The notes beneath the pieces are model-generated. The model had not been told where the DNA came from and ran no database searches. It saw only the letters and a list, made by a program, of their open reading frames with translations. Below, piece after piece: positions 6,850-60,128 of a DNA stretch of 64,000 bases (the stretch's first letter is position 1; each line of letters begins with the position of its first letter). The translations under genes and the position numbers were made by a program. The stretch is from Methanococcoides orientis (GTDB lineage Archaea > Halobacteriota > Methanosarcinia > Methanosarcinales > Methanosarcinaceae), in contig NZ_CP073710.1 in assembly GCF_021184045.1 (NCBI RefSeq), positions 62,001 to 126,000 on the forward strand, given 5' to 3'.

Positions 6850-7412
6850 AATTAAGATTAGTAATTTCAATGGTGCTTGTGGCTATGTTTTTCATGGTAC
6901 CTGCGAGTGCAGATCTGTTCGATGATCTAAATGCTCAGGTCGGTGAATACAATGATAAGATCGATCAGGTTCCCGGAACTGTGCAGTCTATATTTTCGGA
7001 TCAGCACGTGATCCTTGCTGTTTACATGAATGATGCTGAAAATGGGACTACGGATGGCCCTGACTTTGATGTGGTTCTCAGTGACGGCCCATTCGTTACT
7101 GAAAGTGGTGTCACCATGAACATGATCGCTATCACAGGTAGTGATGCTTCGGTATCTAATTTCGGCAAATGGGGCGAGCTGGATTCCGAATACAAGTGGG
7201 ATGGTGTAGACTTTACTGAAACCATCATTGTAACAACAAATGAGGATACGGCAAGAGCGATCCTGGATTCTGAATCTCCGGGTGAGGTCTTTCTGGAAGC
7301 ATACGACAGTGGTATGATCATAATTGAGGGTGCCGATGATGCAAGTATAACAACGAAAATATATATTGCAGTAATGCCCTTGGTGATGAAGTTATATGCT
7401 TTGATCAGTTGA
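6846..7412 (+). CDS. Secreted protein of unknown function
   Basis: This 188-aa protein has a clear signal peptide: KLRL, a hydrophobic core and a cleavage-like VPASA before DLFDDL. The mature part is acidic and beta-rich, with no motif I recognise, and ends in a hydrophobic stretch (IYIAVMPLVMKLYAL) that may be a C-terminal anchor. The start at ATG 6846 is supported by GGGGTG about 8 nt upstream; a GTG at 6837 lies inside that Shine-Dalgarno region. It is probably on the outer face of the cytoplasmic membrane. Confidence 0.7.
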   Translation: MKLRLVISMVLVAMFFMVPASADLFDDLNAQVGEYNDKIDQVPGTVQSIFSDQHVILAVYMNDAENGTTDGPDFDVVLSDGPFVTESGVTMNMIAITGSDASVSNFGKWGELDSEYKWDGVDFTETIIVTTNEDTARAILDSESPGEVFLEAYDSGMIIIEGADDASITTKIYIAVMPLVMKLYALIS

Positions 7413-10062: not shown

Positions 10063-10461
10063 TTATTCATCTTCCCCGAACTGGAGGGCTGCAGAATTTA
10101 TACAATAACGCTTCCCTGTGGGTTCCGGACCGTCATCAAAAACATGTCCCAGGTGGCTTCCACAATTAGAGCAGATCACTTCTATCCGGTGCATGAAGTG
10201 GCTGTCGTCAGTGGCAAGTTCCACACGATCACTGGATATCACATCGTAAAAGCTTGGCCACCCGGATTGTGAATCGAACTTCTTATCTGATGCGAATATG
10301 ACCTGGCCACAGGCGCCGCAGTTATATGTTCCCTTTTTCTTGTTTGACAACAGTTTCCCTGTAAACGGCATTTCCGTTCTCTTTTCCCTTAAAATTGCAT
10401 ACTGTTCAGGTGTCAGCAGCTTTTTCCACTCCTCTTCTGACCTCTTTATTTTCTCTATTAT
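10063..10461 (-). CDS. msrB: Peptide methionine-(R)-sulfoxide reductase, apparent ATA start
   Basis: MsrB reduces methionine-R-sulfoxide. Zinc-binding CGAC and CSNC pairs, SGWPSFYD, the HxGHVFDDGP loop and the catalytic-cysteine region RYCINSAAL are all present. The first ATG (10371) would delete the conserved N-terminal helix. Upstream in frame lie 30 codons reading IEKIKRSEEEWKKLLTPEQ, exactly as MsrB proteins begin, with no ATG, GTG or TTG. AAAGGGGG (10476-10469) is followed by 7 nt and then ATA at 10461, which I take as the start (132 aa). A point change from ATG or a sequencing error is the alternative. Confidence 0.85.
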   Translation of the reverse strand: MIEKIKRSEEEWKKLLTPEQYAILREKRTEMPFTGKLLSNKKKGTYNCGACGQVIFASDKKFDSQSGWPSFYDVISSDRVELATDDSHFMHRIEVICSNCGSHLGHVFDDGPEPTGKRYCINSAALQFGEDE

Positions 10462-13750: not shown

Positions 13751-14049
13751 TGCTATTTGACCAGATCAACAGGGAACTCGAGCTTACTGAAAGGCATTTG
13801 ATCGTTCTCCAGAAGGTCGTTGAAAAAGGACCTATTGGCATATTGAAGTTAGCCGAAGAAACGGGAATGCCAACTCATAAGGTAAGGTATTCGTTGCGTG
13901 TACTGGAGCAGGAGCATCTTATCAAGCCTTCCTCACACGGTGCAATGGCGGGTGACATGGCAGAAGAGTTCGTTGTAAAGTTCAATGAGAATATAGGCAG
14001 TATTCTGGAAAAGGTGAATCTGATCAGCGACCTGGGCGACAGGCTCTGA
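13750..14049 (+). CDS. Winged-helix DNA-binding protein
   Basis: This 99-aa protein has a helix-turn-helix in its first two thirds (GPIGILKLAEETGMPTHKVRYSLRVLEQEHLIKPS), with the wing replaced by SSHGAMAGDM, and a C-terminal helix that may dimerise. It is probably a transcription regulator. It overlaps the FAH gene stop by one base and is followed by gltX with a 66-bp gap. Its targets are unknown; autoregulation of the FAH pair is possible. Confidence 0.75.
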   Translation: MLFDQINRELELTERHLIVLQKVVEKGPIGILKLAEETGMPTHKVRYSLRVLEQEHLIKPSSHGAMAGDMAEEFVVKFNENIGSILEKVNLISDLGDRL

Positions 14050-44001: not shown

Positions 44002-44323
44002 ATACTTTTTTTTCCAGTATCAATTTCTTATTATCAGATAATGCTAATGCTGCCGGCTCAGCAACACCTTTGAGGCCAAATCGGCTTGCCTGTGAGTCGG
44101 ATGGCACTTCAAAAGCGTTCAGGACGTCATCAGGCAGGAACTTTATCTCAAATCCCATTTTATCTATCGCTTCTATAAGGCCGGTCTCGTTCTCCTTTAG
44201 GGTGGATGATGCGAACATCTTTATTTCACTTTCATCCCTTCCGACCTCATTCAAAGCATGCTTTACAGCATCGATGACCTCTTCGGATGATACGCCTCTG
44301 CGAGCACCTATTCCAAAGTACAT
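43970..44323 (-). CDS. CbiG C-terminal domain protein
   Basis: This 117-aa protein corresponds to the CbiG_C domain. YFGIGARRGVSSEEVIDAV and ASSTLKENETGLIEA are family motifs, with SRFGLKGVAEPAALAL near the end. CbiG opens the delta-lactone and loses acetaldehyde in the anaerobic pathway. In this genome the gene is split: this ATG (44323) overlaps the stop of the N-terminal gene, and the break falls at the usual linker, suggesting true fission rather than a frameshift. Confidence 0.88.
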   Translation of the reverse strand: MYFGIGARRGVSSEEVIDAVKHALNEVGRDESEIKMFASSTLKENETGLIEAIDKMGFEIKFLPDDVLNAFEVPSDSQASRFGLKGVAEPAALALSDNKKLILEKKVYGRITIAIAE

Positions 44324-44859
44324 TACTGGTCCGCCTTATCTTTTTTCAACACCGAAACATCATTTTCCACGATAACTATCTTTGGCCCCTTTATCTCCAG
44401 GACTTCCACGTCCTGATCAAGCAGAGCACAGTTAACGTCCCTCGTGGATTCCTTGTTAACGATGTCGTATCCCAGCTTTGCTGCAATACCTTCTACAGAG
44501 TTGCGATTGTGTACTTCAGTAGCTGTAGTTATAACGGGAACTACGCCCATCTCGGATATTTTGCGTACAAGCTCATTTGCACCATGATGTCCTCCGAGCA
44601 GTGATATGGCGAAGTTCAGATTGGAATCGACCACCACTACGGCGGGGTCTTCCCATTTATCGACTACCAGTGGTGCGATCTCACGCACGACTATCCCTGT
44701 TGCAAAGACTGCAACCAATGCCTGGTAGTCTTTGAAGATCTCCTCAAAGATCCCCTTTTTGTAAATAATAACATCTGCATCGATGTGGTCTGCAAGTTTG
44801 TTGGCCACATCGAGGTTACGTTCAAATGTTATTACAGCGGTTTTTGTGCTACTCCGTAT
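44323..44859 (-). CDS. CbiG N-terminal and central domains, apparent ATA start
   Basis: The coding part includes [20 protein letters not shown], then [21 protein letters not shown] and the central [15 protein letters not shown], matching CbiG. The first GTG (44808) would cut within the conserved N-terminal strand. Upstream in frame there is no ATG, GTG or TTG, but AGGAGG (44873-44868) is followed by 8 nt and ATA at 44859. This gives a 178-aa product starting [10 protein letters not shown] after the initiator, overlapping cbiF by 28 bp. It works with the C-terminal gene next door. Confidence 0.8.
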
Positions 44860-57942: not shown

Positions 57943-58090
57943 GCTATACTTCCACTTTTTTGGTGGGGTCAAAGGGAACAATTCAATAAAGGATCGCATG
58001 TTTTTTTTTCTGCGTTCCTCTTTTTTAGAGATTGTCCCTCTTTCACTTATATTTTTATTATAATCTATCATATATCGAGGAGGATTTCGT

Positions 58091-59482
58091 ATAAGGTCTA
58101 TTCACTCTTGTTCTATCCTGTTATTTTTCGTATCGTTCGTCCTGTTAATGGCAGGTGCTGCTACTGCAGCAGAACCTACTGGGTTTGGTGAACTTGATTC
58201 GGAAGACTTCGACAGTCATTCCAAATGTGCCAACTGTCATGCCATAATACGAAGTCAGTGGCAGGGGAGCATGCATGCCTATGCCTATACCGATCCTCTT
58301 TATCAGGCAGAGCTGCAGATGGCAGGCGAAGAGACCGGCGGGCAGACTGATGAGTTCTGTTCACGCTGCCATACTCCGATCGGTGTGATGAGTGGTGAGG
58401 TGCCTCCGATCGATGGTTCCATGGCAAGTGATGTAGCGTTAGAAGGTGTCCAGTGTGATTTCTGTCATACTGTTCCCGAAGGAGCTGTCGGTGACGGTGC
58501 ATTTGTTTCAACTCCTGGGGAAATAAAGTGGGGTCCGCATGATGATGCGCCTTCTGCTGCCCATGAGTCCGAGTTCAATGACTTCTACACCAATGCTGAA
58601 TATTGTGGAATGTGCCACAACGTCAACAGTCCTTTCAATGGCCTTCCTCTTGATGACACTTATATATCATGGGCTAGCAGCCAATATGCTGAGGACGAAG
58701 TTACATGCCAGGACTGTCACATGAGCCCGGGAATTACACAATTTGAGGCAAATCCTGGAAGGTCCGCATCCAGTGCTCCAAAGAGGGACCATATTTCCCT
58801 GCATGATATCGTCGGAGCAAATTCCTTCATGCTGGGGGAACTTAGCGATGGACAATATGGTGAAACGGCTGTGGAAAGACTCCAGCAGGCTGCAATACTT
58901 GAAATCTCCGTGCCCGATGAAGCAAGCTCTGGTGAAGATGTCAACGTCGATGTCTCAATTACCAATTCAGGGGCAGGGCATAAGCTTCCAACAGGTATTA
59001 CTGAAGTGAGGCAGATGTGGCTGGAAGTTTCTGTTACTGATGCTGAAGGTAAGGAGCTGTACAGTTCAGGACAGCTCGATCCAGAAGGGGCTATCCAGGA
59101 CGCGGTGATATACCATACTGTTCTTGCAGATGCTGATGGGGAATTTACTGACAAGTTATGGGAAGCCGAATCCATTGTTTCAGATAACAGGATCCTTCCG
59201 AAAGAAACAGAAGTTGAAACCCATTCCTTCGTGATGCCTGAAGATGCAGTAGATCCGATACTTGTTGAAGCAAAGTTATTATATCGTTCTGCACCGCAGG
59301 GTATGGTAGATGAATTATTTGGTGAAGGTACTTATGATGTCCCTGTGATCGATATGAATATTGCCTATGGCTCTATCAATGGCGAAGCTGATATTCCATC
59401 TGAACCAACTCCTGGGTTTGGTGGTCTTTTGCTCGTAATATCCCTGATCGCAGTGGCGTGTATCTATAGGATCAAAAAATAA
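58091..59482 (+). CDS. Pentaheme c-type cytochrome, exported and C-terminally anchored; apparent ATA start
   Basis: Five CxxCH heme sites are seen: CANCH, CSRCH, CDFCH, CGMCH and CQDCH, in a cytochrome c554-like region, then a beta-rich domain (VSITNSGAGHKLPTGITE) and a C-terminus PTPGFGGLLLVISLIAVA ending IKK, a PGF-CTERM-type sorting signal. The first ATG (58148) starts inside the signal peptide. Upstream in frame IRSIHSCSILLFFVSFVLL forms a good signal, with no ATG, GTG or TTG; GGAGG (58079-58083) is followed by 7 nt and ATA 58091. That gives 463 aa. It would sit on the outer membrane face and carry electrons; the partner is unknown. Confidence 0.88.
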   Translation: MRSIHSCSILLFFVSFVLLMAGAATAAEPTGFGELDSEDFDSHSKCANCHAIIRSQWQGSMHAYAYTDPLYQAELQMAGEETGGQTDEFCSRCHTPIGVMSGEVPPIDGSMASDVALEGVQCDFCHTVPEGAVGDGAFVSTPGEIKWGPHDDAPSAAHESEFNDFYTNAEYCGMCHNVNSPFNGLPLDDTYISWASSQYAEDEVTCQDCHMSPGITQFEANPGRSASSAPKRDHISLHDIVGANSFMLGELSDGQYGETAVERLQQAAILEISVPDEASSGEDVNVDVSITNSGAGHKLPTGITEVRQMWLEVSVTDAEGKELYSSGQLDPEGAIQDAVIYHTVLADADGEFTDKLWEAESIVSDNRILPKETEVETHSFVMPEDAVDPILVEAKLLYRSAPQGMVDELFGEGTYDVPVIDMNIAYGSINGEADIPSEPTPGFGGLLLVISLIAVACIYRIKK

Positions 59483-59498
59483 CGTTGGAGGAATTAAC

Positions 59499-60128
59499 AT
59501 ACCTGGTAATGTAATAAAACTGCTTGGAATATCCGGAAGTCCTCGAAAGAAGGCAACAGATCGCATGGTCAGGGCGGCTTTGGAATTTGCTGAGGAGAAA
59601 TATGATGTGGAAATTGAATATTTCTCTGCAAAAGGAAAGGATCTGAAGTTCTGTATCCATTGTGACCATTGCGTCCGAACCAAACAGGGTTGCATCCATA
59701 AGGACGACATGCTTGAACTCTATGATAAGATGGAGTGGGCAGATGCCTGGATAATAGGCACTCCTGTTTACCAGGGAACTCTTAGCGGGCAGACGAAAGT
59801 TATGATGGACAGATGCCGTGCGGTGGTTGCCCGTGATCCTAAGGTTTTCATGAATAAGGTTGGGGCAGGCATGGCTGATGGTGGTGATCGCGTAGGCGGA
59901 CAGGAGCCGGCTTTGCAGGCCATCCACAACTTCTATATTATCAGTGAGATGCTTCCTGTATCTGGTGGTTCCTTTGGTTCTAATCTTGGAGGCACTTTCT
60001 GGTCACAGGACAAAGGTGCTGAGGGCGTGGAATCAGATGATGAAGGCTTAAGAAGTATGCGAAAGACCGTTCGCAAACTTATCCAGACCGCTCAGATGGT
60101 AAAGACGGCATCTGTGGAGGACAAATAA
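59499..60128 (+). CDS. Iron-sulfur flavoprotein (Isf family), apparent ATA start
   Basis: This protein has the Isf order: an FMN-binding LLGISGSPRKKATDRM, the compact cluster motif CIHCDHCVRTKQGC (C-x2-C-x2-C-x6-C, [4Fe-4S]), WIIGTPVYQGTLSGQTK, and a late GGDRVGGQEPALQAIHNF. The only canonical start, ATG 59565, would remove the FMN loop. GGAGG (59487-59491) is followed by 7 nt and ATA 59499; no other start lies in frame. That gives 209 aa, as expected (about 190-200). Isf proteins of Methanosarcina relatives reduce O2 and H2O2 with ferredoxin electrons. It follows the cytochrome by 16 bp. Confidence 0.88.
   Translation: MPGNVIKLLGISGSPRKKATDRMVRAALEFAEEKYDVEIEYFSAKGKDLKFCIHCDHCVRTKQGCIHKDDMLELYDKMEWADAWIIGTPVYQGTLSGQTKVMMDRCRAVVARDPKVFMNKVGAGMADGGDRVGGQEPALQAIHNFYIISEMLPVSGGSFGSNLGGTFWSQDKGAEGVESDDEGLRSMRKTVRKLIQTAQMVKTASVEDK

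Follow-up and report, generated by a model that had tools for sequence, protein, structure and literature searches.

The window, our name for the whole stretch of 64,000 nucleotides analysed here, comes from Methanococcoides orientis, whose genome is a single contig of 2.49 Mb. It contains a gene for a pentaheme c-type cytochrome and, directly downstream, a gene for an FMN-reductase or flavodoxin-like protein that also lacks a canonical start codon. The features of this pair, and of two further genes of the window, are collected in Table 1. The initial annotation called the cytochrome pentaheme, and that label is right because the translation holds five CXXCH motifs (CANCH, CSRCH, CDFCH, CGMCH and CQDCH) between 58226 and 58720. 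The signal peptide was assigned by eye and from aligned relatives rather than with a predictor. The C-terminal tail may be an anchor of the PGF-CTERM kind. If TTATATTTTTATTATAA is a promoter, the transcript could possibly start just before the Shine-Dalgarno sequence (SD).

Table 1. Features of the cytochrome locus and of other genes in the window with a proposed ATA start
Feature	Position	Strand	Basis
Possible promoter, TATA-like AT-rich stretch TTATATTTTTATTATAA	58047..58063	+	sequence only
In-frame stop TAA, bounds any upstream extension	58061..58063	+	
SD GGAGG, 7-nt spacer to ATA	58079..58083	+	sequence; G-rich SD here in all 10 genus copies
Pentaheme c-type cytochrome, 463 aa	58091..59482	+	Pfam Cytochrome_C554, 2.7e-09
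Proposed start codon ATA	58091..58093	+	ATA/ATT in 10/10 Methanococcoides; ATH in further genera
Signal peptide: positive n-region, hydrophobic core, ATAA end before EPT	58091..58171	+	translation; aligned relatives with canonical starts
First in-frame ATG, end of hydrophobic core, not conserved	58148..58150	+	
PGF motif, hydrophobic helix and basic tail (PGF-CTERM-like anchor), C-terminal	59411..59479	+	sequence
SD GGAGG of FMN-reductase gene, 7 nt ahead of ATA 59499	59487..59491	+	
FMN-reductase/flavodoxin-like protein, proposed start ATA 59499	59499..60128	+	Pfam FMN_red, 4.8e-32; orthologues
MsrB (SelR), proposed start ATA 10461, GGGGG at 7 nt	10063..10461	-	orthologues
CbiG N-terminal-domain protein (CbiG_N), proposed start ATA 44859, GGAGG at 8 nt	44323..44859	-	orthologues

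Read from the TAA at 58061, the cytochrome frame runs S-I-I-Y-R-G-G-F-R to ATA 58091, continues as RSIHSCSILLFFVSFVLL and then reaches ATG 58148. There is no ATG, GTG or TTG in this frame between the TAA and that ATG. Our reading of the frame agrees with the initial annotation on each of its positional points: no canonical start precedes ATG 58148, GGAGG at 58079-58083 stands 7 nt before the ATA, and the ATG falls past the signal core, at the end of the hydrophobic stretch. Other ATH codons, such as ATT 58100, are present in the frame, and the choice among them has to be made by comparison.

Ten other Methanococcoides genomes were searched and nine have the gene; the one without it (G001) is 76% complete. 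This gives ten copies to compare, the window's genome and the nine others, from separately sequenced isolates and MAGs that include M. vulcani. The codon at 58091 is ATA in nine of the ten and ATT in the tenth (G005), each time behind a G-rich SD, and the codon after it is AGG or AAG, which opens a positively charged n-region. Of the in-frame ATH codons, only the one at 58091 is found at a constant place and SD distance in relatives. Codon 4 (ATT 58100) can be dismissed as the start, because two species have GTT or GCT there. Within the genus no canonical codon comes earlier than a TTG at codon 8, which some members have 28 nt from the SD and which may be a weak start there. Most copies have in-frame stops 12-27 nt upstream of the start, and stops as near as 12 nt close off longer versions of the cytochrome in most species. 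The ratio pN/pS is 0.62 in the signal segment, a mild constraint, against 0.88 in the leader, which is unconstrained. The conservation of codon and SD in relatives supports the original argument that only a start at the ATA brings the signal peptide into the protein.

A gene finder restricted to canonical starts will call ATG 58148, the first canonical codon, which would make the protein cytoplasmic or the gene a decaying one. We consider this very improbable. The ATG occurs nowhere else: the other nine species have GCT, ATC or GTC there, so ATG 58148 is not an ancestral start. It has no SD and lies inside the conserved signal peptide. Attachment of c-type heme requires export, and the frame is intact in nine of the ten genus members. 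The exception is a single in-frame TAG in G009 (L011). Since Methanosarcinaceae can read TAG as pyrrolysine, it may be a pyrrolysine codon, or the copy may be broken.

It could also be argued that a canonical start lies upstream and that the cytochrome frame is reached from it by frameshifting or splicing, since four species (L008-L011) have an out-of-frame ATG 20-22 nt upstream. However, it stands 22 nt away in L008 and 20 nt away in L010, which would call for different shifts, and several genus members lack it altogether. Most species also have the in-frame stops just described. The placement of an SD before the ATA would be pointless, and we give this idea very little credence.

The pattern extends beyond the genus. 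We read the starts of 75 orthologous cytochromes, those of Methanococcoides included, and in 21 of them the codon placed by the SD is ATA, ATT or ATC and every canonical codon lies out of the SD's reach. These clear cases are the 10 Methanococcoides copies and eleven from three other genera, namely four in g3 (ATT), two in g5 (ATT) and five in g4 (ATT or ATC in G073, G079, G084, G085 and G088). Six more are less clean but likely non-canonical. The four in g14 have ATT at the SD position and an ATG or TTG three codons later, 16 nt from the SD, which may be a weak start; the one in g6 has ATC at the SD position and an ATG without SD six codons later; and the one in g11 (G033) has ACG where G123 has an aligned ATG. 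Nearly all of the remaining orthologues start with ATG, GTG or TTG, G099 and G089 being ambiguous. The sisters of the ATT and ATC orthologues carry ATG (g4) or GTG (g8/g7), and in another genus the same aligned start reads ATG AAA CAC (L104/L107) in some copies and ATT AGA CAC in one (L121). A tree of 30 full-length cytochrome proteins requires a minimum of five changes of start type. Clades therefore inherit their state, and over longer times one type can give way to another. The cytochrome thus lacks a canonical codon, keeps normal SD spacing and has relatives with a canonical codon in its place, as a near-cognate AUH start should.

These comparisons also bear on another explanation, in which editing of the mRNA turns AUA into AUG or the A is an error of sequencing or assembly. 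ATA and ATG are one G/A difference apart, which is the appeal of both ideas. But the same ATA was found in nine separately sequenced genomes, and relatives have AUU, AUC and ACG at this position, which no single type of one-step edit would explain. Of the explanations considered here this is the least probable.

One genome in the comparison, G102, is very likely M. acetivorans by our assumption, and its cytochrome homologue, at 53% identity, is presumably MA3739. We regard MA3739 as very likely the orthologue of the Methanococcoides cytochrome. Like that protein, it has five hemes (PMC6703419); unlike it, the gene in G102 begins with GTG behind an SD rather than with AUA. One listing gives MA3739 0 transmembrane helices and an unknown localization (PMC6703419). 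The protein is raised when AQDS is being reduced (PMC6703419) and also in an mmcA mutant (PMC11024163). The Methanococcoides cytochrome has the five CXXCH motifs and, judged by eye and from aligned relatives, the N-terminal signal peptide of the MA3739 group. The ExtKL multiheme cytochromes (NF040886) were considered as another family. The match to their profile is partial, and its 66.5 bits fall far under the family cutoff of 250 bits, so membership was rejected; the present protein also differs in being archaeal and in having a PGF-CTERM-like tail.

By comparison of sequences, the AUA start is no quirk of the cytochrome: the neighbouring gene and three or more others appear to behave alike. 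In the FMN reductase, the FMN_red domain and the GISGSPR loop extend upstream of the first ATG (59565), and the proposed start is ATA in six clade-A species, the four clade-B species having ATG at the aligned position. For MsrB, five clade-A genomes show ATA, one genome (L159) shows GTA, and clade B has TTG. The CbiG_N start is ATA in all 17 genomes, from eight genera, and shares its nucleotides with the end of the upstream gene (Y-R-R-S-H-L-Y-G-V). A change to ATG would alter a conserved tyrosine of that gene, which explains the persistence of the ATA, and the overlap by itself preserves nucleotides, so this conservation is not independent proof. A KamA-like gene, named by resemblance and with a sub-threshold Pfam Radical_SAM match, starts with ATA in 10/10. 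Weaker candidates are a CTG in a SepCysS-like gene and an ATT in a rubrerythrin-like protein of two species.

Three other ORFs belong with these weaker cases. A fumarase-like ORF (L071, G000:C1:321859-322518, - strand) has an ATC start and stops after 219 aa, about 60% of the Lyase_1 profile, and is either interrupted or a split gene. In G005 a corrinoid-protein-like ORF (L233, about position 13943, + strand) has ACG 7 nt after GGAGG where ATG is expected, and in G102 a Cas1-like ORF (L264, about position 7129, - strand) has ATC 7 nt after GGAGG.

How common are such starts? We screened 464 kb of the host genome for GGAGG or GGGGG 5-9 nt before the first possible start with no canonical start within 5 codons. 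ATA was returned five times and all other non-canonical codons together five times, which is more ATA than chance. The five others are one ATC and one CTG, both plausible starts, and CAA, CGT and CTT, which are register neighbours of the same sites. Because an SD was a condition of this screen, the association of AUA with a strong SD is partly built in. An orthologue screen without that requirement, using reciprocal best hits on non-overlapping ORFs, returned the same genes. Across the genome GGAGG-N7-ATA is not enriched (it has 67 sites, and the reversed pattern has 65), and we reject the motif as a sign of frequent AUA use; AUA starts are few. All 67 sites were read, and three are clear starts while one is unsure. 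The unsure one is an RCK/TrkA-like ORF (L299, G000:C1:2181900) with ATA 7 nt after GGAGG and an ATG six codons on. With three or four in 67 genome-wide, the rate of 5/442 in the 464-kb sample is not representative.

Taken together, we believe it highly probable that AUA 58091, a near-cognate codon behind a strong SD, is where translation of the cytochrome begins, that the signal peptide exports the protein, and that such starts are rare, inherited and shared by several genes in Methanosarcinaceae. The GGAGG at 7 nt would position the ribosome over the AUA, and the initiator tRNA would read it despite a mismatch at the third position, so that methionine is presumably the first residue. The signal peptide made from this start would direct the cytochrome across the membrane, where heme would be attached. 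AUA is a poor codon that probably keeps the initiation rate low, and a strong SD 7-8 nt away probably makes up for it. We looked for an altered initiator tRNA in the 464-kb sample and saw none: both initiator-type genes there are identical and have the ordinary anticodon CAU. Near-cognate reading by the normal initiator tRNA is then the simplest account.

The closest precedents are bacterial. In E. coli, infC and pcnB start with AUU and are controlled by IF3. They share with our cases a near-cognate AUH start with an SD, an ordinary initiator tRNA and conservation across species. They differ in that the present starts are archaeal, that AUA is the commonest codon in Methanococcoides and that a controlling factor is only proposed. 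By analogy, these starts might be conserved because they are regulatory, initiation being tied to the levels of initiation factors (aIF1 or others) as in infC, and electron-transfer genes would thereby be coupled to the translational state of the cell. This would add to near-cognate reading rather than replace it. Non-canonical cytochrome starts are kept across many species, the adjacent cytochrome and FMN reductase both have ATA in one clade, and aIF1 discriminates against non-canonical starts, as cited in a 2021 review (PMC8211752). Against this, canonical and near-cognate codons interchange with a minimum of five changes on the tree, so a regulatory start would be dispensable, and the affected genes have no clear common function. 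Nor is there a sign of a structured leader or riboswitch, as five start regions folded no better than shuffled sequence did (z +0.6 to +1.5). We think regulation unlikely. A broader proposal, that AUA, AUU and AUC are true and long-conserved starts in Methanosarcinaceae and that the cytochrome/FMN-reductase pair is a translational control point through which electron-transfer proteins respond to initiation-factor stringency or growth state, is a little less doubtful to us but still unlikely and speculative.

GUG and UUG are also alternative starts used with an SD, but their mismatch is at the first position and annotation pipelines accept them, whereas AUA, AUU and AUC mismatch at the third position and are not accepted. 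Annotation restricted to the accepted codons drops the N-terminus of every AUH-start gene. The losses here would be the cytochrome's signal peptide, the flavin-binding loop of the FMN reductase and part of MsrB. Because extracellular electron transfer is being studied in the MA3739 group, wrong N-termini can mislead both localization and the design of constructs. The 2021 review describes archaeal non-canonical events demonstrated in elongation and termination only (PMC8211752), and a limited literature search found no earlier report of AUA, AUU or AUC starts in archaea. The paired ATA and ATG orthologues in Methanococcoides offer a direct route to start-codon stringency in archaea, and conserved AUA, AUU and AUC starts would add initiation to the non-canonical events of archaeal translation.
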